From Arcobacter defluvii (lineage in GTDB: Bacteria; Campylobacterota; Campylobacteria; Campylobacterales; Arcobacteraceae), in assembly GCF_013201725.1 (NCBI RefSeq), contig NZ_CP053835.1, positions 1,240,001 to 1,304,000 of the forward strand: a stretch of DNA of 64,000 nucleotides, read 5' to 3'. Under the pieces are notes generated by a model. The model saw only the letters and a program-made list of their open reading frames with translations. It was not told where the DNA came from and made no database searches. Position numbers and translations under genes: made by a program. Positions 16,059 through 63,810 of the stretch are shown here, piece by piece; within the stretch, counting starts at the first letter, position 1, and each line of letters opens with the position of its first letter.

Positions 16059-17891
16059 CTAAGAATTATTATTTAGTGTTTGAATAGGAATCTCTATATT
16101 AGTTTCATTTAACTGAAGCATTTTTTCCCAATCTTTATGATTAGGATTTTTAATACTTTTCATAAAAGGTGAAACTTGTCTAAATTTATTAATAAAATAT
16201 TCATCATTGTAATAAAAAGCTTTATTACATAATATAGGTTTTTGATAATTCATCATTAATAAAGCTTTACTTTGTGATAACTCCATAAGTTCTTGTGGTA
16301 ACATTAAGGCTCTTTTTTGTTCACTAACAGAATGAGAAGAACTTCCAGCTTCTAAAAACTTACCGTGATTATAAGATTTAGAAATTGCTTTAAATGTTGT
16401 ATCTCCTAATCTTTTTGAAATTTTTTCAGCTTCTTCAAATTCGTTAGGTGTGTAATAAATTTTTACTCCCATATTTTGAAGTAGGGTATTAGCTCCCTCT
16501 TTATCATATCCATCAGGAGTTCTAGCTTCAAGTTGAGATATTGCTTGAAATATCATCAAAATTCTTAAATGGAAACTAGCAATATATGAAACACCTTTTT
16601 TAAGAATTGGCATATTCCCAATGCTTGTGAACTCATCTAATAACAATAAACAAGTATATTTTAAATCAGGATTTTTTTGTGGTAACTCTTTTGTATTTAC
16701 ACTAAGTAATTGCGAAAAAAAGATATTTAAAATAGGTCTTGCAATAGCAAGTTTATCAGGTGTTATACCTATAAAAATAGTCATTCTTTTCTTTCTTAAA
16801 TCTCTTAAATCAAAATCACTTGTTGCTGTTGCAGTTGTTATTGGTTGATTCCTATATATCATTAGTGGAGCATTAAAAGAACTCATAACTCCTGATTTAG
16901 TATTTTGGCTATCTATTGTAAAATAGCTATTCAATTTTTCTTTAGTCGGTTTAGAAATTATTTCTAAATGTTCTAAATATTCAAAAGTATCATCAAGCCC
17001 TGTAATTTTTGTATCTTCTTCCTCTTCACTTGGAATTGATAAATCAAATCCAGCACTTAAATTTAATAAACCACACATAGACCATTCGACATTTAAATTA
17101 TGTTCCTCTAAAAATTCTCTTCCATTCTTTGTTAGTGCTAAATCTTTATAAAGATATGCAAGACCTATAAAAAGATTTTGAGCTAATTGGTTAAAGAAAA
17201 CTGTTGTACTATCTCCATCAGCTGGATAAAGTAAATTCACAAAGTCTAATAGGTCATTATCTCTTGTTGTTTCATTTTCTAAATCTATATAAGTTAAAGG
17301 ATTGTATCTATGAGTTCTAAAGTCAAAAGGATTAAATAAATAAACTTCTTGTCCTAAGATATCTCTTCTATATTTACTTGAAAAATCGAAACATTCTTGT
17401 TTTATATCTAAAACAACACAACTTTCTTCCCATTCCATTAAGTTGGGTATAACTATACCAACACCTTTACCACTTCTTGTAGGAGCTCCTAAAGCTAGAA
17501 ACTCACTACTCTTCCATTTAAGAAGTTCACCACTTTCTAATTTTCCAACAACTAAACCTTTGTCTTGAAAAAGACCCATCTTTTTTATTTCATTTCTATT
17601 TGCAAAACGAGCTTCTCCATGTAAGCTTTTTTTGTTTGGTAAAAGTATTAAAATAAAAAAAACTACACTATAAAATGAAGCACTATAAAATATAGCTTCC
17701 CAAATTCTTGGATAATTATTAATAATTGCTTTATAAGTAAATAATAAATCATAATTATTGTTAATCAATTTGAATAAATTAAGATTAAAATATCCATTTA
17801 AAAAAAAGATTAAAAGACCTGATGTTAAATATGTAAAAAATATTACAGAGAAAACAAAAAATAATAAACTTCCTTTATTTATATTTTTCAT
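16059..17891 (-). CDS. virD4: Type IV coupling protein VirD4/TraG
   Basis: This ATPase brings the DNA-relaxase complex to the secretion channel. The start at 17891 is chosen (610 residues) because AAAGGAGCTAAAG precedes it; it overlaps virB11 by 17 bases. Two N-terminal membrane helices (about residues 10-32 and 65-85) are followed by Walker A GAPTRSGKG (about residues 135-143) and Walker B LLLLDEFTSIG. The length and order match the family. Last gene of the virB7-virD4 operon. Confidence 0.95.
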   Translation of the reverse strand: MKNINKGSLLFFVFSVIFFTYLTSGLLIFFLNGYFNLNLFKLINNNYDLLFTYKAIINNYPRIWEAIFYSASFYSVVFFILILLPNKKSLHGEARFANRNEIKKMGLFQDKGLVVGKLESGELLKWKSSEFLALGAPTRSGKGVGIVIPNLMEWEESCVVLDIKQECFDFSSKYRRDILGQEVYLFNPFDFRTHRYNPLTYIDLENETTRDNDLLDFVNLLYPADGDSTTVFFNQLAQNLFIGLAYLYKDLALTKNGREFLEEHNLNVEWSMCGLLNLSAGFDLSIPSEEEEDTKITGLDDTFEYLEHLEIISKPTKEKLNSYFTIDSQNTKSGVMSSFNAPLMIYRNQPITTATATSDFDLRDLRKKRMTIFIGITPDKLAIARPILNIFFSQLLSVNTKELPQKNPDLKYTCLLLLDEFTSIGNMPILKKGVSYIASFHLRILMIFQAISQLEARTPDGYDKEGANTLLQNMGVKIYYTPNEFEEAEKISKRLGDTTFKAISKSYNHGKFLEAGSSSHSVSEQKRALMLPQELMELSQSKALLMMNYQKPILCNKAFYYNDEYFINKFRQVSPFMKSIKNPNHKDWEKMLQLNETNIEIPIQTLNNNS

Positions 17892-50061: not shown

Positions 50062-50204
50062 TTCTGATTTTTCAAGTTTTTTGACTAATTCATCTTTTTC
50101 ATCAAGTTTTTTTTCATTTATTTTTTTATATTCATCAAAATCTTTTTTAAAATAATTTAGTAAATTTATATCTTCATGTTAAATAGAATTTTTAGGAAAT
50201 TTAT

Positions 50205-50301
50205 GTAGAAAATGAAAAAAAATAGGAAAAATAAGGATAATTTAGGAATAAATAGAAAAATACAGAAAATAAGAGGAAAAAAAAGAAAAATATAGGAAAA
50301 T
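50205..50301. other. Nearly C-free purine-rich tract
   Basis: On the plus strand this stretch is A/G-rich with almost no C and repeats short words (TAGGAAAA, AGGATAA, TAGGAATAA, AGAGGAAAA). It lies in the 50062-50554 gap and could be a degraded repeat region or replication-related tract. Confidence 0.4.
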
Positions 50302-50386
50302 CAATTTTTCTCCTAAAACTAAAATAGGCACATCGACCAATCACCGTACAAAAATCGCATACGCTAATTTTGAGTGATTGATGTAC

Positions 50387-50448: not shown

Positions 50449-50481
50449 AGACAAAAACTTGTCCAATTAATAAATTATAAT
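50449..50481 (+). promoter_or_regulatory. Palindromic-box promoter 1 (AGACA-N6-TGTC-N12-TATAAT)
   Basis: GACA 50450-50453, TGTC 50460-50463, TATAAT 50476-50481. First of five promoters with the same spacing. The palindrome covers the -35 position, so a DNA-binding regulator probably controls the gene at 50555. Confidence 0.75.
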
Positions 50482-50554
50482 AAAATTTCTAAAAAAAAGA
50501 CAAAAAAGAGTTTTTAGATTGATATAATATTATAAATTATGAAGAGGTTATAAA

Positions 50555-52030
50555 TTGAAATTATCAAAATCACTTTATACAAGAGGATTACAGTGTCAAA
50601 AATCTCTTTGGTTAAAAAAGTATAAAAAAGAAGTTTTAACAACTCCTGATTCAAAAGCAGAAGCTATTTTTGAAAATGGAAATGAAGTAGGGGATTTAGC
50701 TTGTAAACTTTTTCCTAATGGAATTGAAATTCCCTATGATAATACAACTTTTCAAGATAAAATCATTCTAACTCAAGATTATATAAATCAAGGTATTGAA
50801 AATATCTATGAAGCTACTTTTGAGTTTGATGGTATTTTGATTATGATTGATATTTTAAATATTCATGATAATAAAGTTGTTATAAATGAAGTTAAAAGCT
50901 CAACTGAAGTAAAAGATGTATATCTTCATGATGCAAGTATTCAATACTATGTTTTAAATGGTTTGGGATATGAAATAAGTCAAGTAAATATTATACATAT
51001 CAATAATCAATATGTAAGAGATGATGAATTAAATATAAATCAATTATTCTGTATAGTTGATGTAACCTATGAAGTTAAAGAACTACAAGCAAATATAAAA
51101 AATAATCTAAATATTTTTAGAAAAACTCTTTCAAAAGAAGATGAACCAAATATTGATATTGGAACACATTGTAATGACCCATACTCTTGTGATGCAATTG
51201 ATTATTGTTGGAAACATATTCCTCAATACTCAATATTTGATATTTCAAGATTACAAAGTAAAAAGAAATTTGAACTTTATAAAAATGGTATTTTAGAATT
51301 TTCTCAAATTAAAGATATAAACTCTTTTTCTGTTTCTCAACAAATACAAATACAATCAGAATTAGAAAATAAAACTATAATAAATAAAGAAGCTATAAAA
51401 GAGTTTGTAAATACTTTAACTTACCCAATATATCATCTTGATTTTGAAACATTCCAACAAGCAATTCCAGAGTTTAAAGGATTAAGTCCATACCAACAAA
51501 TTCCTTTTCAATACTCTCTTCATATTGAACATGAAAATGGAACACTTGAACATAAAGAGTTTTTATCTCTTGATGGAATTGACCCAAGAGAACAAATAGC
51601 AAAAAGGTTAGTTGAAGATATTCCAACTAATGTAACAGTATTAGCATATAACATGGGATTTGAAAAAGGAGTTATTAGAAAACTAGCTAATTTGTTTGGT
51701 GAATATACATATGATTTAATGGCTATTCATGATAACTGTAAAGATTTAATGATTCCTTTTCAAAATAAAGATTACTATCATCCTAATATGAAAGGAAGTT
51801 ACTCTATCAAATATGTACTTCCATCACTTGTGCCAGAGTTTGAAAATGCTTATAAAGAACTAGATTTAATTCATAATGGTGGTGAAGCTATGGAAGCTTT
51901 TTCAAATTTATCAAAAATTGATGATGAAGCGTTGAAACAAAGATATAGAGATTCGTTGTTGGAGTATTGTAAACTTGATACTTTAGCGATGGTAAAAGTT
52001 TTAGAGAAATTAAGGGAGTGTGTTAAATGA
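50555..52030 (+). CDS. DUF2779-like nuclease (Cas4-like plus DEDD exonuclease-like)
   Basis: This 491-residue protein from TTG 50555 (GAGG upstream) has two halves. The N-terminal half looks Cas4-like: early Cys ([12 protein letters not shown]), PD-(D/E)xK elements [20 protein letters not shown], and a Cys pair [12 protein letters not shown]. The C-terminal half looks like a DEDD exonuclease: [28 protein letters not shown]. Overlaps mcrB by 4 bases, so it belongs to the McrBC operon. Confidence 0.8.
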
Positions 52031-54030
52031 GTGAAGAAATAAAAGTATGGGTTGTAGGTGATGATTACCGATGTAAAGAATTTTTAGAAGAAAATTTTTG
52101 GGAAATTGGATTTGTAGAAGATGATGAAGGTTTTCAACCAAATATAAAGAATTTAAATGATATTTCAATTAATGATTTAATTGTTTTGAAAAGAAAAGAT
52201 GGTAATTTAAAAAATAAAACTACAAAAATATTTGCAATAGGTATTGTTCTATCACAAAAAAATGAAAGATCGATAAATATAAATTGGTTAATTAAATATG
52301 GTTGTAATAATTCTAAAGAAATAAATAGTATTTATGCAAAAACTTTAGTTCAACTTTCAGATACAAATGAAGAGCTAATACTAGGAAAAAGTCTAAATGA
52401 TTTTATTATAGAGAATCATATTGAAGCAACAAGAGGGGATAAAATCTTTTCATTTAAAACTTTTAAACCAGATATTCAAACAGAAATTAATTCAAAAGAT
52501 AGAAATAAAATGCAAAGTGATGTAAAACAAATTCAACCATTAAATCAAATATTATATGGAAGTCCAGGGACTGGTAAAACTTACAATACTATAAATAAAG
52601 CTTTGGAAATTATTCTTGAAAAAGAGTTAGGAGAGGATTATTTAAAATTATCTAGTAAAGAACAAGAAGAAAAGCTTATTTCTGAAGCTAAAAAAATTTA
52701 TGAATTAAATAAAACAGAAATTTCATTAAAAAAAGAAGATGATAATAGAGAAGTATTAAAACAAGTTTTTGTATTTTATAAAAAACAAGGACAAATAGAA
52801 TTTGTAACTTTCCATCAAAGTTATGGATATGAAGAATTTGTTGAGGGAATAAAAGCCAAAACAAATGAAGAAACAAAACAAGTTGAATATGAAATAGAAG
52901 CTGGAATATTTAAGAAATTATCAATCGAAGCTTTAAAAAATGTTTTAATTAATTCTAAACAAATTAATAATAAGAAAAAATTTATATTAAATGCAAAATC
53001 ATTGAATATTCAAGCTGAACTTATTCAAGAAGATGAAAATACATATAAAGTTTTAAAGGGCTCAAAAATAAGAAAAGGTGAAGCAGAATCTTTTAAAAAT
53101 TATAATTATAGTGAGTTAAAAAATATTGTTCTAAAAAAAGCAAAGTTAAAAGAAGAAAGTGAATTTTATATTTTAGAAGAAGATTACTCTTTCCAAAGTT
53201 TGAGTGCTGCATCATCAGTAATCTTAGGAAGAATGTCAAATGGTTTAATTGATTGGAAAGAAATTATAGAAACAGATAATTCATTTATAGAAAAAGAAAA
53301 TAATCCATCTAAAAATTATGTCTTAATAATAGATGAAATAAACAGAGGAAATATTTCAAAAATTTTTGGAGAACTTATCACACTTATTGAACCATCAAAA
53401 AGAATAGGGGCTGATGAAGAGATAAAAGTAAAACTTACTTATAGTGGAGATAGTGAAGAACCTTTTGGAGTACCAAAAAATCTTTATATCATAGGTACTA
53501 TGAATACAGCTGATAGAAGTATCGCTCCTATTGATACAGCACTTAGAAGAAGATTTGTATTTGAAGAAATGGCTCCAGATTCTAGTTTATTGAATGAAAA
53601 TATTCAAGGTATTAATTTGCAATTATTACTTGAAGCTATAAATACAAGAATAGAATATTTATACGATAGAGACCATACTATTGGTCATGCTTATTTGATA
53701 GATATAAAAACTTTAGATGATTTGAAATTTGCATTTAAAAATAAAATTATTCCACTTCTTGCAGAGTATTTTTATGAAGATTGGGAAAACATAGATTTAG
53801 TTTTAAATCAAAATAGATTTGTAGTTTCAAATAGTGAAAACAAAGGGTATATCTCTAAAAAACTTGAAGAAAGAATTAGAAATAAAATTACCTATAAAGT
53901 AAGTGATGATGAAAAAGATTGGAGAATAGAAAATTTTCAAAAAATCTATGATAATGAAGTTGATTTAACAAAGAAAGAAAAAACAGAACAAAATAATCAA
54001 GTAAATACAGAATTTTCAAATGAAGGATAA
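52027..54030 (+). CDS. mcrB: McrB-type AAA+ GTPase 1
   Basis: This 667-residue protein has a unique N-terminal domain (1-150, possibly EVE-like for modified base recognition). Then Walker A GSPGTGKT at 178-185, Walker [13 protein letters not shown], and the McrB signature [26 protein letters not shown]. It unwinds or translocates with GTP and recruits McrC to cut modified DNA. Confidence 0.9.
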
Positions 54031-55264
54031 AGCAACTATTAGTGAATTTGGACTTATTGGATGTGAAATTGAGCCATCAAATAAGTTCTTATGTGCAAAA
54101 ATAGATAAAAAATTTTATGATGAGTTAGAATCATTTGCTAAAATAGATAAAGGTAAAGATGTTTTACAGTTTACTGGAAATGGTAGATATTTACAAGCAA
54201 AAAGTTATGTAGGAACTATTCAAACTACAAGTGGATTTATTCTTGAGATATTACCAAAGACTGTAAAAGATAATGATGTAGAAAAATCAAAACAAGTTTT
54301 TATGAAGCTTTTACATCTTCTTTATAAATTGCCAAATTATAAAAATATTGATAGTGCTAATTTTGAAAGAATTAAAGATTTAGAGATTTTTGAAATATTT
54401 ATTTTTATGTTTTTAGAAGAAGTTGGGATTATCATAAAAAAAGGGATAAAGTCTGATTATGTAGGGTGTGAAGATAGTCTTTTTTATCTAAAAGGAAAAC
54501 TTCTTATAAATGAACAGATAAAAAGAAATAGTATTCACAAAGAGAGATTTTATGTTCAATATGATGACTATAATCAAAATAGAGCAGAAAATAGACTTAT
54601 AAAATCTACTTTAAAACTATTGTCAAATATTTCAAAAGATTTTAATAATCAAAGAAAAATAAGACAATATTTAGAGCATTTGAATTGGATTGAGTTATCA
54701 CTTAATATTGATAAAGATTTTTCAATGGTTAAAACAGGTCGAGGAATGGAACACTATAAAAATGCTTTGATTTGGTCAAAAGTATTTTTAAAAAAAGAGT
54801 CATTTAGTTCATTTAGTGGTGATACTATTGCTTTTGCTATTTTATATCCAATGGAAAAACTTTTTGAATGTTTTGTGCAATGGTGGCTAGAAAAAAGATA
54901 TTCGTATCTTCAAATTGAAGCTCAAAATGGTGGAGTTGATTTTGTAAAAAAACTATTTACCGTAAGACCTGATTTTTTAATCAAAAAAGATAATCAAGTT
55001 ATTTGTGTAGCAGATGCAAAATGGAAATTAATAGAAAGTGATAAAGAGTTTTCACAAAGTGATTTTTATCAACTATTTGCATATAAGCATATATTTTTAA
55101 AAGAACAAAAAGAGAATTATAAAGATGAGATTTGTGAACTAATGAGTTTAAAAATCTATTATCCAAAATCAGATTATTTGGAAAAAAGTAGAATATTTGA
55201 ATATTTTGATAATACAGAAATTAAAATAGTTCCACTTGATATTGAAACAGAATTATTAAAATAA
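54020..55264 (+). CDS. mcrC: McrC-type nuclease 1
   Basis: This 414-residue protein overlaps mcrB by 11 bases. The N-terminal part (LEILPKTV) fits McrC. The C-terminal PD-(D/E)xK site is [22 protein letters not shown]. It is the nuclease partner of the upstream McrB. Confidence 0.88.
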
Positions 55265-55267
55265 ATT

Positions 55268-55300
55268 AGACAAAATTGTGTCCAATACATTTTTTATAAT
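55268..55300 (+). promoter_or_regulatory. Palindromic-box promoter 2
   Basis: GACA 55269-55272, TGTC 55279-55282, TATAAT 55295-55300. It begins four bases after the mcrC stop. Confidence 0.78.
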
Positions 55301-55333
55301 TGTAAATAATAAAATAAAATTAGAAGGTGTTAA

Positions 55334-56980
55334 ATGAGTAATAAAATTGAACAATTAAAAAAACAATGGAATACTTGGGATAAATCATGGAATAGTGTAG
55401 AACAATATAATGGTTTTATAGAAAAATACCCAGTTAATTTATTAGAAAAATTAACTTTGGAAGAATACACTAATATAAAAATAAATGATAATGATGAATA
55501 TTTTACTCATTGGTTAGAGCGGAAAACTGAGAACTGTGGAAAGTTTAGAACAGCAAGTTCGTATGCTTATGGAATTTATAAAGTAAATCCAAATAATATC
55601 CAAGACGAAAATGAGAAAAAAATTGCTGAAGATAAATACAAAGCTTTTGATGAAAATAATAAAAAATCTAAAGATTATTTGAGTAATGATAAAGCACAAG
55701 AGTATTTTAAGAAAAAGGTATTACCAATAATAGTTGCATTGTCAAAATATGAAGATATTGGAGATAATTATAACTTAAAAACTGTAAGACCACTTGATAT
55801 AAATTATGCAAGAAAAATAGCTTATATGTATAATGTAGATAAACTAATACCTATATTTAAAAAAGAGGTATTGGAGTCTATTTCAGAGTTTTTTGATATT
55901 AAAGATGAAATTGATTTTTCATCTTATAAGGCAACAGAACTAATTTTAGAAAAAATAAAGAAAGAGTTTGAAATTAATGAAGATATTGATATTCAACAAA
56001 GTCAAAAACTTGCTAGTTTTTTATGGGAAAAATTTGGAACATCAATAAGTTTTGAGAGTAAAAATATAATTTATTATGGAGCACCAGGTACTGGGAAAAC
56101 ATACACTGTACAAAATGCGATTAAACAAAAAATGTTACTTGAAAATGCAAAATCGTTTTTTACACAATTTCATCCATCTTTTGGATATGAAGATTTTATA
56201 GAAGGATTGAAACCATCGATAAAAAATGGAGCTACTGAATTAGTTTTGACAGATGGTATATTCAAAAAATTTTGTAAAGAAGCAATGAATGAATTAAAAA
56301 ATGCAAGAAAAGAAAAAAGAGAACCTATTAGCTATTATTTTTTAGCTGATGAAATAAACAGAGCAGAATTATCTACAGTTTTTGGTGAACTTTTACTATG
56401 TATTGAAGAGAGTAAAAGAGTAGATTTTGATGATAAAGGTAATATCAAAGATGGCTCAATGCTTATTGGTACACAATATAGTTATCTTTATAAAAATGAA
56501 AATGATGCTGTAATTGTTGATAAGGGCGAATATAAATTTGGAGTTCCTATCAATTTATATTTTATTGGAACGATGAATGATATAGATAGAAGTATTGATA
56601 GTTTTGATTTGGCTCTTAGAAGAAGATTTATTTGGGAAAGAATGGATTGTAAATATGAAGTAATTTTAAATGATGAAAAATTTAAAGATGTAGAAGAGAG
56701 AAATCTAAACAACTACATAACAATTTGTGAAAACTTAAATAATTTTATTGCGCTTACTTTAGGATTAGGAAAATCTTATGAAATAGGACATTCGTATTTT
56801 ATGAATATTGAAATACCAACTAAAGGGCAAAATGCAAATAAAATTACTCAAAATAATGTCGAACTACTTTTTAATAAAAAACTTAAACCATTGATTGAAG
56901 AGTATTTAAGAGGTGAGTATTCACTATCTGATATAGAAAAAGAACTAGAAAAAGCTCAAAATATATTTAAGTTAAAATAA
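55334..56980 (+). CDS. McrB-type AAA+ GTPase 2
   Basis: This 548-residue protein has a different N-terminal region (1-240, helical, WNTWDKSWNSVEQYNGFIEKYPVN) from McrB 1. Walker A GAPGTGKT at 249-256, Walker B YYFLADEINRAE, and IGTMNDIDRSIDSFDLALRRRF. The altered N-terminus suggests another target. Its stop overlaps the next start (TAATG). Confidence 0.88.
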   Translation: MSNKIEQLKKQWNTWDKSWNSVEQYNGFIEKYPVNLLEKLTLEEYTNIKINDNDEYFTHWLERKTENCGKFRTASSYAYGIYKVNPNNIQDENEKKIAEDKYKAFDENNKKSKDYLSNDKAQEYFKKKVLPIIVALSKYEDIGDNYNLKTVRPLDINYARKIAYMYNVDKLIPIFKKEVLESISEFFDIKDEIDFSSYKATELILEKIKKEFEINEDIDIQQSQKLASFLWEKFGTSISFESKNIIYYGAPGTGKTYTVQNAIKQKMLLENAKSFFTQFHPSFGYEDFIEGLKPSIKNGATELVLTDGIFKKFCKEAMNELKNARKEKREPISYYFLADEINRAELSTVFGELLLCIEESKRVDFDDKGNIKDGSMLIGTQYSYLYKNENDAVIVDKGEYKFGVPINLYFIGTMNDIDRSIDSFDLALRRRFIWERMDCKYEVILNDEKFKDVEERNLNNYITICENLNNFIALTLGLGKSYEIGHSYFMNIEIPTKGQNANKITQNNVELLFNKKLKPLIEEYLRGEYSLSDIEKELEKAQNIFKLK

Positions 56981-58389
56981 TGATACAAACAGTTGATAAT
57001 TATCAAAAAATAGAAATAGATACTAATAGATATTATTTTAGATTTGAAGGTAATAAAACTCAAATTAATAATGATAAAAAAGTTATTGGTGAAAAACTTG
57101 AAATAAATCTAAATGATTATCAAACCAAATCACTAATCTTTTCATTTTTCAAAGATGAAGAGAAAATAATATCTAAAAATGAAGATGATTTAATCATCTC
57201 TATCAAAAAAGATGGGGATAACTACCTTGCTCAAACTGGAAATTATGTAGGAAAGTTTGTTTGGCAAGGTTTAGAAATTGATATAAAATCAAGATTTTCA
57301 AATACTTTTTTAGAGAGAATGTTAAATTTTGCAAATGATATTTTTCTTGATGATGTAAGTATTACAGGTAATAAAGTAGATAAAGATTTTGATATTTCGA
57401 AATATATAATTTATTACATGTTTGTTCAAAATCTTGAAAAGGCTTTTTTACTTGGACTCCCAAAGTCATATAGAAGTATAGAACATCATGAGATGAAATT
57501 AAAAGGGAAAATTGATATTAATAAATTTATTAAATATGATATTCCATTTCAAGGTAAAATTTCAAGTGTAAGTAGAGAACAAAAAGAGATTCAAGAAATC
57601 ATAGATGTATTATATAAAGCTGTAAAAATTATAGATAATAAAAATAAAGCTTTTTTAAAAAATATTTTACATATAAAAACTCATCTAAAACAATATAAAA
57701 GTAATAACTATGTTTCAAATGAAACCATAAATAAAGCATTAAAATCAAAAGCTTTACAAAATCCAATTTTTGCACCATATAAAAAAGTGCTTGAATATGC
57801 AAGATTTATTATAAATGGAAATAATATAGAAGAAAAAAATGATGGAAAACAAGAAACTTTCGGATTTATTATCAATGTAGCAGAGCTATTTGAAATTTAT
57901 ATCACTAAACTTCTTCAAAAAGAGTTTAGTGATTGGTATGTTGAAAGTCCTAAAATAGAGCTATATGATACACCACAAATGTTTTATCAAAGAAAAATTA
58001 TTCCTGACATTGTGATGATAAAAGATAAAGATGTGATAGTTTTTGATACAAAATATAAAAGAATGAATATGATAGGTAAAAATAAAAATGGAGCTGGAGA
58101 TGTTGATAGAAATGATTTTTTCCAAATCAATACCTATATGAGTTATTATCAAAATAAAAATTTTAATGTAAAAATTGGTGGACTTTTATATCCAATAGAA
58201 AAATCATTTATAGAAAATAAAAATATTTGTCATAGTCAAACTTGGTTTGGAAATTTAAATACAAAATTCATAGTTGATGGTATTGATTTATCAAATTTAG
58301 AAGAAGCAAAAGATAATGAAAATAAATTCGCTCCAATATTAAAAAGAGAGCAGAAATTTATTAAAGGGATTAAAAATTTATTAAATTAG
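56980..58389 (+). CDS. McrC-type nuclease 2
   Basis: This 469-residue protein has an N-terminal McrC-like part (YVGKFVWQGLEIDIKSRFSN) and a C-terminal PD-(D/E)xK site IIPDIVMIKDKDVIVFDTKYK. Its sequence is clearly different from McrC 1. Confidence 0.87.
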   Translation: MIQTVDNYQKIEIDTNRYYFRFEGNKTQINNDKKVIGEKLEINLNDYQTKSLIFSFFKDEEKIISKNEDDLIISIKKDGDNYLAQTGNYVGKFVWQGLEIDIKSRFSNTFLERMLNFANDIFLDDVSITGNKVDKDFDISKYIIYYMFVQNLEKAFLLGLPKSYRSIEHHEMKLKGKIDINKFIKYDIPFQGKISSVSREQKEIQEIIDVLYKAVKIIDNKNKAFLKNILHIKTHLKQYKSNNYVSNETINKALKSKALQNPIFAPYKKVLEYARFIINGNNIEEKNDGKQETFGFIINVAELFEIYITKLLQKEFSDWYVESPKIELYDTPQMFYQRKIIPDIVMIKDKDVIVFDTKYKRMNMIGKNKNGAGDVDRNDFFQINTYMSYYQNKNFNVKIGGLLYPIEKSFIENKNICHSQTWFGNLNTKFIVDGIDLSNLEEAKDNENKFAPILKREQKFIKGIKNLLN

Positions 58390-58420
58390 ACATAAATATG
58401 TCCACTTAAAATTTTATACT
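58388..58420 (+). promoter_or_regulatory. Palindromic-box promoter 3
   Basis: GACA 58389-58392, TGTC 58399-58402, TATACT 58415-58420. The box overlaps the stop codon of the previous gene. Confidence 0.78.
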
Positions 58421-58449
58421 TCTTTATATCAAATATAAAGGAGCATAAA

Positions 58450-58998
58450 ATGCTAGAAAATAACATAATTGTAGAACTTACAATAAATGGTCAAAAAGTA
58501 AAAGTTGGACATAAATTTTTGGAATCTATAATCATAGATATACCTGATGTAAAAGAAAATATGAAAATATTTACTTTATTAGCTTGTAATGATAATTATG
58601 AAATAAGAGAAAAAATTTCAAATAAAGATTATTTGTCAAAAGAAGCGATAGATATTTTATTAAATGATAAATCCGATGATGTTATTGTAAATATACTTTC
58701 AAATAGAGATGTAAATAAATATATCACAAATGAGCAGATATTTTCAATTATTGAGAAAGATAACACAAAATTACTTTCTACAATTGCAAAAAATATAGAT
58801 GAATTTAAAAATTGCGATAGATGCAAAATTATCAGTCACATGGTAAAACATGAAAGTGCAAAAGTTAAAGCTTCTTTGTTCACATATAGTGTATCTGATT
58901 TACTTTCAAATGAAATGTTAAGTGAGTTGTCAAATGATAAAGATTTTGATGTGGCTTATGAAGCTAAAAAAGAACTAAAAGATAGAATGAAAGATTAA
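58450..58998 (+). CDS. HEAT/variant-LRR-like repeat protein
   Basis: This 182-residue protein has repeated helical pairs of about 22 residues (VKENMKIFTLLACNDNYEIRE, DYLSKEAIDILLNDKSDDVI, KDFDVAYEAKKEL). It looks like a scaffold. No domain assigned with certainty. Strong AAAGGAGC before the start. Confidence 0.6.
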   Translation: MLENNIIVELTINGQKVKVGHKFLESIIIDIPDVKENMKIFTLLACNDNYEIREKISNKDYLSKEAIDILLNDKSDDVIVNILSNRDVNKYITNEQIFSIIEKDNTKLLSTIAKNIDEFKNCDRCKIISHMVKHESAKVKASLFTYSVSDLLSNEMLSELSNDKDFDVAYEAKKELKDRMKD

Positions 58999-59050
58999 CC
59001 ATAGTTTTATTAGTTAAATTATTTATTGCTTCTATAAAAAGGATATAAAA

Positions 59051-59407
59051 ATGTCAAAGCGAAATAAGAATACTTCTCAAGAGTTGCCAATTGATTATAA
59101 AGATTTCCAAGAAATACTTTTAAAACAAGGAAAAATAATTGGAATTGTAAAATTATTTGATGTTATAAATATTGAGAATATAACTAAAGAAATTAAAAAT
59201 GAGTTTAGAGAAGAAATTAAAAAAGCAAAAGGTATTTTGATTCATTTTGAATCGTGTAATGATATTTCTCTTTTTACTATAAATGATTTTATTTCTTCTG
59301 TTAGAGAAAATACTTCTTTTGATTGTAAAGTAGTTTTTGGAACAAAAAGAAATCATAGTATAGAAACAAATAGTTGTTTGCTTCAAATTATTTTTAGTGG
59401 GTTGTGA
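59051..59407 (+). CDS. FtsZ C-terminal-domain-like protein
   Basis: This 118-residue protein resembles only the second domain of FtsZ: GILIHFESCNDISLFTINDFISSV, then KVVFGTKRN, then CLLQIIFSGL, in place of the family's dL..v and IIFGT..vTVIATG. There is no GTPase domain. It could bind FtsZ or a polymer, or be an independent fold. Promoter 3 probably serves it as second gene. Confidence 0.55.
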   Translation: MSKRNKNTSQELPIDYKDFQEILLKQGKIIGIVKLFDVINIENITKEIKNEFREEIKKAKGILIHFESCNDISLFTINDFISSVRENTSFDCKVVFGTKRNHSIETNSCLLQIIFSGL

Positions 59408-59410
59408 ATA

Positions 59411-59443
59411 AGACAAAAATATGTCCCGTAGTTTATTTATAAT
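59411..59443 (+). promoter_or_regulatory. Palindromic-box promoter 4
   Basis: GACA 59412-59415, TGTC 59422-59425, TATAAT 59438-59443. It begins four bases after the previous stop codon. Confidence 0.78.
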
Positions 59444-59472
59444 CTTTTATAAATAAATCAAAAGGACAAAAA

Positions 59473-60087
59473 ATGCTAAAAGATGTTTTATTTATCACAA
59501 AAGAAGTTTTCTCGAAAGCTTTATCAAAAAAGAAAAACCTAAGAAATCCAAAAAGAGTTTATGATGTTTTTAGAAGTTTTCAAGAAGTTATAAGTGATGT
59601 AAATTTAGTAGCAAATCACTATTTAGCTTTGAATTTTACAGAACATTATCTTCAAAACTCATCTTTTGGAGAACCTGTTGATAAATGGAGATATTTTTTA
59701 AATAAAGATTTAGAAGAGTTAAATGGAACTGTAAAAGAGTATTTACAAAATCTATCTTATCTTTCACATGATGATTCTACATTTGAAACTTATGTAAATG
59801 AGATTTTTAATGCAAAGGTATATTATGCATTTGTTAGAGATAACTATAATGTAGGATTTGTGGAACAAAAAGGAAATTTATTACATCTAAATATTTTAGA
59901 AACTGATAAAAAAGATATACAAAGTGTTTATATAGGTAAACATAAAAAAATAGATTTATCAACTTTTGAAGCAAAAGTATCTTTACAAAAAGAGTTAAAT
60001 GATATAAATGTTGAGTTGAAAATAGAACTTGAGAAATTAAAACAATATATTAAAAATAGATATAGTTTAGATGATTTATTGGTTTAA
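59473..60087 (+). CDS. Hypothetical helical protein
   Basis: This 204-residue mainly helical protein has AAAAGGACAAAAA upstream. No family recognised. It has one promoter of the common type, so it belongs to the island regulon. Confidence 0.6.
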   Translation: MLKDVLFITKEVFSKALSKKKNLRNPKRVYDVFRSFQEVISDVNLVANHYLALNFTEHYLQNSSFGEPVDKWRYFLNKDLEELNGTVKEYLQNLSYLSHDDSTFETYVNEIFNAKVYYAFVRDNYNVGFVEQKGNLLHLNILETDKKDIQSVYIGKHKKIDLSTFEAKVSLQKELNDINVELKIELEKLKQYIKNRYSLDDLLV

Positions 60088-60195
60088 TTAAATATCTAAA
60101 ATTGTAAAAAAATAGAATTTGTATCTCAGAAATTATTAATTAAATAATTTTTAAGATAGAATCAATTGTTTAATATCATATACGAGGACTTAAAA

Positions 60196-60996
60196 ATGAA
60201 ATATACAAATGCCGATATATGTGAATTAGTAGCTAAATTAGAAGGTTTTATCGGGCGAGAAACATCATCATTCAATATAAATGAATGGTATGGTTTTAAT
60301 AATTCTTTTAAACAAACTGCTTATTTTAAAGTTTGTCAAGGTGCTGATAAGAATGGAACAGGAAAGTACAATTTTTATAAAAATAAGTTACCAACAAATA
60401 AAATTTTTATTATTATTAAAGATGGAGAAAACTTTTGTTATAGAGAAGCATCTTTTAATGAATTTGATTATACACAAAGTTCTAAAATATCTATTGCTAA
60501 AAATAACTTAAATAATTTTAAGCATTTAATTTGGGATGAAGAGATAATAGAACAAATTAATGCTACTAATGTTGTTTATAATCGAATTTGTAATAGAAAT
60601 GAAGAAGTAAATAAAAAAGCTATTGAAGATTTACTTAATCAAAATCCAAAACAATGTTATTATTGTGGAATAGATATGAAAACAATTAATGAATTAAATA
60701 ATGCTTCTATATTAAATTCTTCTCTATCTTGGCATCATTCTAAAGGATTAACAAAAAGAACAACTAGAATGACTTTAGAAGTTGAACAATTAAATCCAAA
60801 TGGTGGTTATGTAAAAGGAAATATTGTTTGGGCTTGTTCTTGGTGTAATAATGCAAAAACAGATACTTTTACAGAAGATGAATTTAAAAATATTGCTTGT
60901 GGGATTAATATTGCTTGGAATGATAGATTACAACAAATAGGCTCAAATTCTAAAGTGATTTTTCCTTGGCAAAATCAAGTTAAATGTTGTAAATAA
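60196..60996 (+). CDS. HNH endonuclease domain protein
   Basis: The start ATG 60196 (266 residues) follows GAGGACTT. The C-terminal half has CYYCGIDM, then WHHSKGL, then GNIVWACSWCNNAKTDTFTEDEF: a zinc-bound HNH core. The N-terminal half is unassigned and may recognise the target. It has no palindromic-box promoter. Nuclease activity in defence is likely. Confidence 0.75.
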   Translation: MKYTNADICELVAKLEGFIGRETSSFNINEWYGFNNSFKQTAYFKVCQGADKNGTGKYNFYKNKLPTNKIFIIIKDGENFCYREASFNEFDYTQSSKISIAKNNLNNFKHLIWDEEIIEQINATNVVYNRICNRNEEVNKKAIEDLLNQNPKQCYYCGIDMKTINELNNASILNSSLSWHHSKGLTKRTTRMTLEVEQLNPNGGYVKGNIVWACSWCNNAKTDTFTEDEFKNIACGINIAWNDRLQQIGSNSKVIFPWQNQVKCCK

Positions 60997-61000
60997 AGCA

Positions 61001-61026
61001 TAAAAGAGAACTAAAATTCTCTTTTA
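61001..61026. terminator. Bidirectional terminator
   Basis: TAAAAGAGAA (61001-61010) and TTCTCTTTTA (61017-61026) with a six-base loop, between convergent genes. Confidence 0.8.
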
Positions 61027-61035
61027 TTTCCTTTC

Positions 61036-61836
61036 TCAAATTCCAATTTTTTCACTAGAAACGCAATGCAAAGCACCACCTTCTTTTATTATAGAATTAA
61101 ATTTTATAGGTTCAATAATACAATTTTTATAAATATTCTGAAGTTGCTCTAAAGCTAAAATATCTTCTTTTATACCATAAATAGGCACTATTAAAACATT
61201 TTCTATTTTTACAAAATTTAAGTAAGCTCCCCAATTTCTATTTTTTGTAAAAAAGCTATTGGTATATTTCATAGCTTGGATATTTAGATGGTGTTTTTGT
61301 AAAGTTTTTAATAATTTGTCATTAAAAGTTTTTGATTCAAGAGAAAAATCATTTATTAAAACGCTATTTTCATTAATCCATTGCACCATACTATCGCTAT
61401 GCCCAAATGTATCATATGGTTGTTTTGGAATAATGATTAAATCTTTTAAATCACATTTTGATTTGATAATTTCTATTATTTCAGCTTTTGTTTTTGATGG
61501 ATTTTCTTTGAAAATTTTATCTGTCATTATAGCTTTGTTTTTATATCTCACAAAATTTCCACCATCTATAATTAAATTCATGTGATTTTTCTCATAAATG
61601 ATTTTGGTTTTAATATCTTTATATTTATTGTTTTGTAAATAATTAGGTTCATAAATATAGGATACTAATGTTCCATCATCTAAACATATAGGCATAAAAT
61701 CCCTTGTCCAAATATCTTTAGTATTTTCTAAAATTTCATAAGAAATATTATGTTTATTTAAAATATTTACTAAATTTTCTGATTCTTTTGGATAATTATC
61801 AAAAAATATCTTTGATAAACGAATTGTTTTTTTCAT
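61036..61836 (-). CDS. Agmatine deiminase / peptidyl-arginine deiminase family protein
   Basis: This 266-residue protein has all family motifs: DIWTRDFMP, IDGGNF, FGHSDSMVQW and GGALHCVS with the nucleophile Cys. It probably hydrolyses agmatine or a related guanidino compound. It is shorter than standard agmatine deiminases (about 330). It is the only minus-strand gene of the island. Confidence 0.85.
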   Translation of the reverse strand: MKKTIRLSKIFFDNYPKESENLVNILNKHNISYEILENTKDIWTRDFMPICLDDGTLVSYIYEPNYLQNNKYKDIKTKIIYEKNHMNLIIDGGNFVRYKNKAIMTDKIFKENPSKTKAEIIEIIKSKCDLKDLIIIPKQPYDTFGHSDSMVQWINENSVLINDFSLESKTFNDKLLKTLQKHHLNIQAMKYTNSFFTKNRNWGAYLNFVKIENVLIVPIYGIKEDILALEQLQNIYKNCIIEPIKFNSIIKEGGALHCVSSEKIGI

Positions 61837-61889
61837 ATTAATCCTAGTTATAAAATATTTTTGTAGAAGTTAATCTTAACATTGTAAAT

Positions 61890-61922
61890 AGACAATATTA
61901 TGTCTTGTTGATAGAGTAAAAT
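61890..61922 (+). promoter_or_regulatory. Palindromic-box promoter 5
   Basis: GACA 61891-61894, TGTC 61901-61904, TAAAAT 61917-61922, same 12-base spacing. It lies between divergent genes and faces the frameshifted gene. Confidence 0.7.
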
Positions 61923-61948: not shown

Positions 61949-62600
61949 ATGGATAAAAATATAATTGTCAAAGATAAAAATGCAGATTCAATTTCTATTG
62001 AAAAAATCAAAAATATTTTAGAAAATCAGAAATCTAATGATAAAGATTTGTATAAAAAAATAGGTTATAACTCAAAACAAATATTTGAAAAGAGTTTAAA
62101 TAAGTTTTTAAAATATAAAAGTCTTAAAGAATGGATTGAAAAAGGTTATTATGATTTTACAAATAATGCCACTGAATTTTTTGTAAAACTTTCAAAAGAA
62201 TTAGGATTTAAAGATAGTGAAATTAATAATATTATTTTCAAAATAACTGAATATATTGAAGAAAAAAATAAATTATCAAGTAGTTATATCTTTATAAATA
62301 CAAATTTCAAAAGAGAAGGTGAATCTATTTTAACACTTGCAATGTTGGAGAATAAAAGAAGAATTTCCTTATATAAAAATGAAAAGTTTTTGTTTAAACC
62401 AATAAATGAAATATTAGAACTTGTATCAAGTATAGTTGTAGAACACTATGAGATAAATAATGGGAAATGCTTTATTTGGGGGAGATATTGTTAATTATCA
62501 ATTGCATTTATTTGACAATTTATATACATATTCAATAGATGGTAAACTAACAGATGAGAAAAATAATTTAGATACAAATATTGCATCTATAAGCATTTAA
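61949..62600 (+). pseudogene. Hypothetical gene with a probable +1 frameshift
   Basis: The first frame (181 codons to 62494) ends soon after INNGKCFIW. The next frame is open from ATG 62460 to 62600 (46 codons: MGNALFGGDIVNYQLHLFDN...) and continues smoothly. Removing one base near 62459-62482, where short G-runs (GGG, GGGGG) occur, would join both. So either a mutation, a sequencing error or a phase-variable gene. No domain assigned. Confidence 0.6.
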
Positions 62601-62608
62601 GGAAAACA

Positions 62609-63079
62609 ATGTATTTACTAAATGAAGCACCAATATTTTTTAAATTTTTAGATAGATTTTTAAAAAAAGCTGGTTCAAATATTGATATAAAAAAATCAAA
62701 AAATCTTTTTTTATATGATAAATGTATGTGCAATAAAAATAGTTGTAATACATTTATTTTAAAAAGTAAGAGAAAAATTGAAGATGGATATTATGTTTAT
62801 CATACAATAGAGACAAATAAAGGAACTTTTGGAATTGAACTTTGTGATAATGGCTATTTTTCATTTGTAGCTCAAGGAAATAGTAATTTACCTTTTAAAA
62901 AAGAGTTTGAAGTGATGTTTAAAAAAGAGTCATCTATTACAAATAATTTGATAATAAAAAATTCTAAAAAAGAGTTGTCATATAAAGACCATCTTATTTT
63001 AGAGAGATTTTTTATGGATTTAGAAATTGACCCTATGTATTTTATTTGTATTGATGAATATATAGAAGATTTTATTTAA
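62609..63079 (+). CDS. Hypothetical protein
   Basis: This 156-residue protein has several cysteines near the N-terminus (YDKCMCNKNSCNTF), which may bind metal. No family. It starts 8 bases after the frameshifted gene. Confidence 0.55.
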   Translation: MYLLNEAPIFFKFLDRFLKKAGSNIDIKKSKNLFLYDKCMCNKNSCNTFILKSKRKIEDGYYVYHTIETNKGTFGIELCDNGYFSFVAQGNSNLPFKKEFEVMFKKESSITNNLIIKNSKKELSYKDHLILERFFMDLEIDPMYFICIDEYIEDFI

Positions 63080-63091
63080 AAGGATTTTGAA

Positions 63092-63487
63092 ATGATTTTT
63101 CCAAAAGATATAACTAAACAGAGTGCTAAAAAATATTTAGAAATAAGAAATAAAGATTTTATAGCAATGTTTGTATCAGGTTCAAACTTACATCCAAATC
63201 CTAAATTATATAAATATTATTGGTGGATATATGCAATTGATTCTAAAGAAGATAATGCAGAAAAAGTTTTTTATCAAGATAAATATAGATTAACAACTAA
63301 AGAGTTCATGGATGAATATGAAAGATTAAATAAAGAAAAAATATCATTTGCTTATGTAAATGTAAAATATCATAGATTGGGTGCTTCATTTAATTATGAT
63401 AAATTAAAACAATTAAATCCAGATATTGAATTTGCACCAAAATTTGATGATGATAATGATGAGATAAGCAAGGATGGGCATAAATGA
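63092..63487 (+). CDS. Hypothetical protein
   Basis: This 131-residue protein has aromatic-rich stretches (KLYKYYWWIYAID). No family seen. It overlaps the next gene by 4 bases (ATGA). Confidence 0.6.
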   Translation: MIFPKDITKQSAKKYLEIRNKDFIAMFVSGSNLHPNPKLYKYYWWIYAIDSKEDNAEKVFYQDKYRLTTKEFMDEYERLNKEKISFAYVNVKYHRLGASFNYDKLKQLNPDIEFAPKFDDDNDEISKDGHK

Positions 63488-63810
63488 GAATGTTCTTAGA
63501 TGATATTCGAGAACCTAAAAATAATTATGATGTAATAGTTAGAAATTATGATGAAGCAATAAACTTTGTAAAACAAAAAGGTATTCCATCTTTTATATCA
63601 TTTGACCATGATTTAGGTTGTGATGAAAAAGGAAATGTACTAAAAAGTGGTTATGATTTTGCAAAATGGTTAGTTGATATGGATATTGAAAATATTTATA
63701 AATTTCCAAATGATTTTTCATTTGAAGTGCATAGTGCAAATCCAATAGGAAGAAATAATATAAATTCAATTTTGAATAATTATCTACTTTTTAAAGTAAA
63801 ATATAAATAA
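63484..63810 (+). CDS. cpRec-like (receiver-like) domain protein
   Basis: This 108-residue protein has FLDDIREPK at the start, then SFDHDLGCDEKGNVLKSGYDFAKWL, then VHSANPIGRNNI. These match cyclic-phosphate-processing receiver (cpRec) proteins found in RNA-repair and conflict systems. The neighbour is a Sir2-like gene. Confidence 0.75.
   Translation: MRMFLDDIREPKNNYDVIVRNYDEAINFVKQKGIPSFISFDHDLGCDEKGNVLKSGYDFAKWLVDMDIENIYKFPNDFSFEVHSANPIGRNNINSILNNYLLFKVKYK

Follow-up and report, generated by a model that had tools for sequence, protein, structure and literature searches.

A palindromic promoter box and a candidate WYL regulator shared by the units of a defence-like island in Arcobacter defluvii

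The box promoters and their genes

The 64-kb stretch of the Arcobacter defluvii genome that was analysed here in full, called the window (C1:1240001-1304000 of a genome of 3,021,240 bases), carries towards its end five copies of a palindromic box, AGACA-N6-TGTC, each followed after exactly 12 bases by a TATAAT-like hexamer. The first-pass annotation had described this arrangement and had found no such box elsewhere in the window. Both statements are borne out by a pattern scan of the 64 kb. The five sites are located at 50449, 55268, 58388, 59411 and 61890 on the + strand, and the hexamers are, in this order, TATAAT, TATAAT, TATACT, TATAAT and TAAAAT. The window contains no AGACA-N6-TGTC beyond these positions, with 0.25 matches expected by chance. 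A sixth match in the scan (61891, -) is the opposite-strand reading of the palindromic 61890 site, and a count of 6 was reached by none of 100 shuffles.

Box 1 (AGACAAAAACTTGTC, 12 nt, TATAAT; 50449-50481, +) is placed ahead of a unit on the same strand (50555-55264), in which Pfam identifies a DUF2779 protein (50555-52030), an AAA_5/McrB-like protein (52027-54030) and an McrBC/McrC-like protein (54020-55264). Box 2 (AGACAAAATTGTGTC, 12 nt, TATAAT; 55268-55300, +) starts 3 nt past the stop codon of this unit and precedes a second one (55334-58389, +), with another AAA_5/McrB-like (55334-56980) and McrBC/McrC-like (56980-58389) pair by Pfam. Box 3 (AGACATAAATATGTC, 12 nt, TATACT; 58388-58420, +) overlaps the stop codon of unit 2, and box 4 (AGACAAAAATATGTC, 12 nt, TATAAT; 59411-59443, +) again starts 3 nt past the stop of the preceding unit, in line with the earlier remark that three boxes abut or overlap the previous stop. 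The unit between them (58450-59407, +) had been called a HEAT/FtsZ-like pair. The FtsZ-like half of this description is supported by Pfam (59051-59407, FtsZ_C, E 1.3e-6), but the HEAT half is not, as the protein encoded at 58450-58998 matches no Pfam family at E<=0.01. Unit 4 (59473-60087, +) encodes a 204-aa protein of family F3, which is present in 6 of the 14 island loci compared.

Box 5 (AGACAATATTATGTCT; 61873-61922, both strands) is palindromic over its full length, and TANNNT follows after 12 nt on both strands. It is therefore read as a divergent promoter, directed towards the + gene at 61949 on one side and the - gene 61836-61036 on the other. The latter (61036-61836, -) is a PAD_porph (peptidyl-arginine/agmatine deiminase-like) gene. 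The view that the boxes head separate units holds at all five sites, with the amendment that box 5 additionally faces a gene on the opposite strand. Unit 5 (61949-63810, +) consists of genes of the families F28 (61949-62494), F4 (62609-63079) and F5 (63092-63487) and of a gene for a cyclic-phosphate receiver domain protein (63484-63810), and runs past the window end into a Sir2 gene.

The box array of this island (island 1) also extends beyond the window end. Genome-wide, the exact 15-base box is found at 18 physical sites, 12 of them in C1:1290449-1316334, five in C1:1451234-1458005 (island 2) and one at 1768496. The last site lies within a TolC-like open reading frame (ORF), and is taken as a chance occurrence. 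The pattern is therefore not equally frequent elsewhere in the genome, as 17 of the 18 exact sites fall within two islands. The reversed control pattern has 2 and 2 matches in this genome in its 15-base form, and none in its 33-base form. The full 33-base pattern, AGACA-N6-TGTC-N12-TANNNT, is present on the + strand at 16 of the 17 island sites; at 1306819, ahead of the regulator gene described below, it is found on the - strand instead. A predicted gene start lies at most 92 nt downstream at all 17 island sites, and 42-55 nt downstream at 14 of them. At 1309188, a copy of the box with one mismatch and the correct spacing precedes a Sir2 gene.

The promoter geometry was analysed at 12 non-redundant sites, collected from this genome without any spacing constraint. 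At 11 of the 12, TANNNT occurs exactly 12 bases past TGTC. Shuffled tails (n=2000) gave a mean maximum of 2.8 sites that share one spacing, with a highest value of 6. Identity among the intervening 12 bases averages 40%. When all island loci are pooled, the spacing is found at 38 of 42 sites, a count that includes many islands found with the spacing in the query. In positions 1-49700 of the window, there is no preference for a 12-base gap after TGTC. With the -10 hexamer starting at -12, the box occupies about -39 to -25, with its N6 centre over the -35 position, in agreement with the earlier proposal that the palindrome covers the -35 region. The sequence around -35 resembles TTGACA less than shuffles do, with at least 4 matches in 2 of 38 sites, all picked for having the 12-base gap, versus 5.9 sites expected. 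Several box promoters carry a perfect TATAAT.

A WYL gene that accompanies the box

The first-pass annotation had raised the possibility that the whole island is under a single regulator. The search for a common regulator led outside the window, to C1:1306898-1307818, about 3 kb past its end. The gene at this position encodes a 306-aa HTH_11-WYL-WCX protein according to Pfam (HTH_11 1.6e-8, WYL 4.9e-8, WCX 4.4e-11, all above the cut-off), and its start codon is located 64 nt past the box at 1306819. It is the sole helix-turn-helix (HTH) protein among the 30 island proteins scanned (29 from cluster 1 and one from cluster 2). The genome contains three WYL genes: an 88%-identical copy is found at the end of island 2, and the third, 31% identical, is located elsewhere. 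An AlphaFold model built from 5 sequences was weak (mean pLDDT 58.8).

Box and WYL gene tend to occur together. In a survey of 104 genomes of the family, a strong WYL homologue, at a threshold of our choice (E<=1e-40), is present in 18 genomes and the 33-base pattern in 25. At least one pattern match was found in 16 of the 18 WYL genomes versus 9 of the 86 others (Fisher p 9.6e-11), and at least two in 14 of the 18 versus 2 of the 86 (Fisher p 4.2e-12). The 18 WYL genomes contain 93 pattern matches versus 4 matches of the reversed control. The other 86 contain 12 versus 20, which means that genomes lacking a strong WYL homologue do not exceed background. By our reading of the matches, box and WYL gene share a contig and are no more than 10 kb apart in 12 of the 16 genomes that contain both, and in 3 of the remaining 4 the WYL contig is shorter than 11 kb.

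Among the GTDB species genomes, the WYL protein identified 7 contigs, 4 of them with boxes in the DNA covered; the three without boxes there are a 3.8-kb contig, the contig of a gene broken by TAG, and a partial match. Nine plasmid records match the WYL protein. Stretches of three, located by this protein alone, were read (Aliarcobacter cibarius pACIB, Arcobacter sp. p82_LEO_62 and A. butzleri p63_DSM_105472). They contain 13 physical sites. The 12-base geometry is present at 11 of these on one strand or both; it is missing at the two sites ahead of the WYL genes in pACIB and p82_LEO_62. Boxes are likewise found close to more distant WYL proteins (34-41% identity) of other genera, among different neighbours. 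Two genomes fit the co-occurrence poorly or not clearly. G115 has two pattern matches, although its WYL match is fragmentary and contains two stops. The WYL gene of G026 has an internal TAG and the genome contains no 33-base match; regulator and boxes seem to have been lost together.

The comparison supports the idea of one regulator for the whole island, since the number of boxes tracks one WYL gene across genomes, and the same gene families are boxed in the shuffled islands of relatives while the architecture stays fixed. We consider it highly probable that the box is the operator of the WYL regulator encoded in the same island and that the WYL protein binds it. As the box is present ahead of most gene units, a single WYL protein would govern at least 12 sites. 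The genes under its control probably include restriction, Sir2, AAA and nuclease genes as well as genes of unknown function.

Activation, repression and the ligand

When a profile of eight WYL proteins was searched against the PDB, DriD came first (8tp8, 2.7e-6, and 9pfq, 3.3e-6, the same aligned sequence), followed by PafBC (6sj9, 4.8e-4) and by three chains labelled only as WYL domain-containing protein. Neither BrxR nor CapW appears among the labels of the matches at E<=0.1, and a search with the single WYL sequence gave nothing at E<=0.01. Judged by the profile, though not by the single sequence, DriD is the closest full-length solved relative of the island WYL protein.

The DriD protein of Caulobacter crescentus is a homodimeric WYL activator that has several promoters under one protein, which would likewise be the case here (PMC12340889). 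The DriD test site ATACGACAGTAACTGTCGTAT contains GACA-N5-TGTC, whereas the boxes have GACA-N6-TGTC, with a spacer that is longer by one base. In the didA and driD promoters, to which the comparison is confined, with bapE left out, the half-site is found 12 nt ahead of the -10 hexamer, as in our boxes, if the hexamer is placed according to the printed sequences and the remark on G-14. The constant distance to the -10 element and the position over a poor -35 element are also shared. In contrast, DriD acts on damage-response genes at scattered genomic locations, and not on defence units of mobile islands. Binding of single-stranded DNA (ssDNA) has been shown for DriD (PMC12340889), and would be a prediction for the island WYL protein. 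The mycobacterial WYL activator PafBC has the same TGTC-12-TAnnnT geometry, in the form of the RecA-NDp motif tTGTCRgtg-8 nt-TannnT, but acts as a heterodimer on a non-palindromic site and controls a DNA repair regulon (PMC5656591, PMC11804915).

Taken together, we propose that a single WYL regulator, acting as a DriD-like activator, controls a defence regulon that spans the island, and assign this reading a probability of roughly 60%. The WYL protein would be idle until a ligand, perhaps ssDNA, arises from damaged or phage-derived DNA. As a dimer, the protein would then bind the GACA and TGTC half-sites that flank the degenerate -35 region, at the fixed distance of 12 bases from the -10 element, and would recruit RNA polymerase to all units together. 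That the regulator activates rather than represses is the somewhat better supported alternative. It is favoured by about two to one in view of the half-site and spacing, which are DriD- and PafBC-like, the profile match to DriD, and the location of repressor sites elsewhere. An immune rather than a repair regulon is suggested by the confinement of exact boxes to two islands, apart from the one inside an ORF. That the ligand is ssDNA from phage or from DNA damage is a tentative suggestion, slightly less probable than its opposite.

Several observations weigh against this reading. The nucleic-acid-binding loop has the residues K-K-Y-H-L-K-S here, versus R-S-W-R-L-D-R in DriD and R-N-F-R-L-D-R in PafBC. 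According to the alignment, the basic character is partly retained in the island WYL clade, but the arginines are lost. The ligand may therefore differ from that of DriD and PafBC, and for the same reason we say that the protein may work like DriD, and do not file it as a DriD-type member. At six loci, the promoter of the regulator itself does not have the 12-base spacing on the regulator strand and contains a second, different dyad. As -35 boxes are poorly conserved in this phylum, a missing -35 element is weak evidence. The WYL genome G032 contains no 33-base match, with a 15-base box 38 nt ahead of the WYL ORF. The G108 boxes (1613269-1619800) are separated from the WYL gene by about 0.4 Mb, with no box in the roughly 8 kb around that gene. 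No WYL match at E<=1e-40 exists in G065 and G118, although the pattern occurs there 2 and 3 times, respectively. Finally, the WYL regulators of defence systems characterised so far, BrxR and CapW, are repressors.

This last point bears on the more serious alternative, according to which operator and WYL protein are the same, but the protein is a repressor of the BrxR/CapW type, which covers the -35 region, blocks polymerase at every unit and is released by a ligand such as ssDNA. The BrxR proteins of Escherichia fergusonii and Acinetobacter are, as here, WYL regulators encoded within a defence island, and they repress defence operons (PMC9122601, PMC9122589). CapW of CBASS is a WYL dimer that binds a palindrome in a defence promoter, also as here (PMC9122588). 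Release by ssDNA has been reported for CapW and BrxR, the Acinetobacter BrxR site likewise covers the -35 region, and the promoters with a perfect TATAAT could work alone. However, a repressor does not need a spacing to the -10 element that is exact to one base, and yet the spacing was kept while the intervening bases diverged. The published operators differ from the boxes in placement, since CapW binds over the -10 element of a single operon (PMC9122588), Acinetobacter BrxR from -51 to -27, and E. fergusonii BrxR downstream of -10 (PMC9122601, PMC9122589). A box at about -39 to -25 matches none of these. The BrxR sites differ also in sequence, and E. fergusonii BrxR has two binding boxes in one island, versus a dozen here. 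The PDB search argues in the same direction, although the three chains labelled merely by their WYL domain leave some room. On balance, we regard repression as possible, but rather unlikely.

It is quite improbable that another DNA-binding protein owns the box and that the WYL gene is just a co-travelling island gene. The distant boxes of G108, and those of G065 and G118 without a strong WYL match, would fit such an explanation. It is at odds with the lack of a second HTH protein among the 30 island proteins scanned, with the short distance between box and WYL gene in 12 of 16 genomes, and with the boxes near the diverged WYL proteins of other genera, where the neighbours are different. Moreover, the WYL genes themselves are often preceded by a box.

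With respect to the number of promoters and the type of geometry, the proposed regulon would be new among the known cases of WYL control of defence, as it appears to be island-wide, with many promoters and an activator-type arrangement. In enteropathogenic Escherichia coli, RptR is also one regulator for a multi-gene defence island, but it is an unrelated small repressor and acts at one promoter with three 6-bp palindromes (PMC12255303). Gac/Rsm of Pseudomonas also places many defences under one system, but this pathway acts genome-wide, whereas here an island-borne operator array is involved (PMC11888443). In the accessible WYL and defence-island literature that was searched, with subscription journals mostly outside the search, we found no account of such a box array. 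Defence islands are usually seen as genes that are merely adjacent; a shared operator would turn the island into a regulon of about a dozen promoters under one regulator. The 33-base signature can serve as a search tool, and makes adjoining unknown genes, such as those of families F3, F9, F10 and F28, defence candidates.

Cassettes and further observations

Across 14 loci, the same protein families recur in the islands of relatives in shuffled order and orientation, with boxes in front. The DUF2779 family F2 is present in 8 of the loci and the WYL family F1 in 10, broken copies counted. The named relatives are Arcobacter and Aliarcobacter species (vandammei, caeni and cryaerophilus), together with two metagenome-assembled genomes. 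Among 13 loci, 122 of 856 homologous block ends fall within -40 to +19 of a box start, versus 1.85% by chance, although the pairwise comparisons behind these ends overlap and the ends are not independent. Islands 1 and 2 share 94%-identical blocks, which start 20 and 8 nt ahead of boxes. Since homologous blocks tend to end at boxes, box and genes together are the apparent moving unit, and these units look like exchangeable cassettes. The same data might suggest that the box is chiefly a recombination site that joins cassettes and only incidentally looks like a promoter, but this is very improbable, because the -10 hexamer at a fixed distance and the start codons 42-55 nt past the box at 14 of 17 sites demand a promoter, seven island loci scanned contain no tRNA, and the tyrosine integrase (C1:1318311-1319405, -) is found past the last unit, at one island end only.

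LexA is reported to be absent from Epsilonproteobacteria (PMC2390758). This genome contains no LexA above the cut-off and one weak match, to the C-terminal part. If activation is right, WYL activators of the DNA damage response (DriD, PafBC) would be linked to phage immunity, and bacteria without LexA would gain a damage-triggered immune response. It is conceivable, albeit speculative, that Arcobacteraceae without LexA have an "immune SOS", in which an ssDNA-sensing DriD-like WYL activator turns on a whole mobile island, and in which the box promoter admits arriving units, so that islands assemble and exchange cassettes on chromosomes and plasmids.

The defence-gene neighbourhood of the WYL gene, similar to that of BrxR and CapW, includes McrBC-like, Sir2, PDDEXK_4, PDC-S26 and PDC-S27 genes. 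The proteins scanned include two Sir2 proteins, an AAA protein with IetA/TRIP13-like matches, a DUF234 ATPase (PADLOC PDC-S27) and two PDC-S26 candidates, one of which also matches PDDEXK_4. Cluster 2 encodes a tubulin/FtsZ GTPase-like protein. Several island units match no family, and not every unit is boxed, as the gene at 60166 with a weak HNH match is without a box. The F28 gene behind box 5 (window 61949-62600) encodes 181 aa, versus 200 and 189 aa in homologues; it is apparently frame-interrupted near its 3' end, with related-looking sequence in another frame. An A-rich, repeat-like stretch (taggaaaaataagga...) at 50190-50320 of the window, upstream of box 1, lies at the apparent left edge of the island. 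Island 2, viewed within C1:1446000-1462000, shares units with island 1 at 94% identity. It is bordered on one side by a ParA-like gene and small genes of the replication type, and on the other by a gene that resembles aroE (names assigned by eye), as might be expected for an integrated element.

A second dyad, TGTAAAATA-N5-6-TATTTTACA or a near form of it, is located between the box and the WYL start codon, directly before the latter, in L096, L093, L098, L196 (two of three genes) and L197, and in a diverged version in L111. This dyad may serve in autoregulation or form a hairpin. A 7-base gap as the rule for the regulator's own promoter was considered and rejected, because the upstream regions differ, the second dyad is present, and in G100 the WYL gene is preceded by the 12-base form. 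The 435-aa gene after the WYL gene in G108 is not a DUF234 ATPase, as found after WYL in G000, but an amino acid permease. A viral source of the pattern was also rejected: the stricter TATAAT form has matches in 68 viral contig stretches, with one match each and no cluster.

The pACIB stretch (L196) has three WYL regulator genes in a span of about 8 kb, where several transposases and genes of the Sir2, DUF262 and AAA types are also located. Many boxes in L101, L102, L117, L118, L119 and L120 have the asymmetric centre AGACATAAAG[A/C/G/T]TGTC. The WYL proteins of these genomes are 37-40% identical to the query, with the exception of G118, which is without a strong WYL match. One box of this type is also found in G075 (WYL 59% identity). 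The occurrence of asymmetric centres together with 37-40%-identical WYL proteins hints that the box centre may be recognised. Runs of G occur in phase-variable genes in Campylobacterota, and a run of 8 G is found between box promoter and start codon in L096 near 17111-17160 (G022:C55:77610) and in L029 at 9345.

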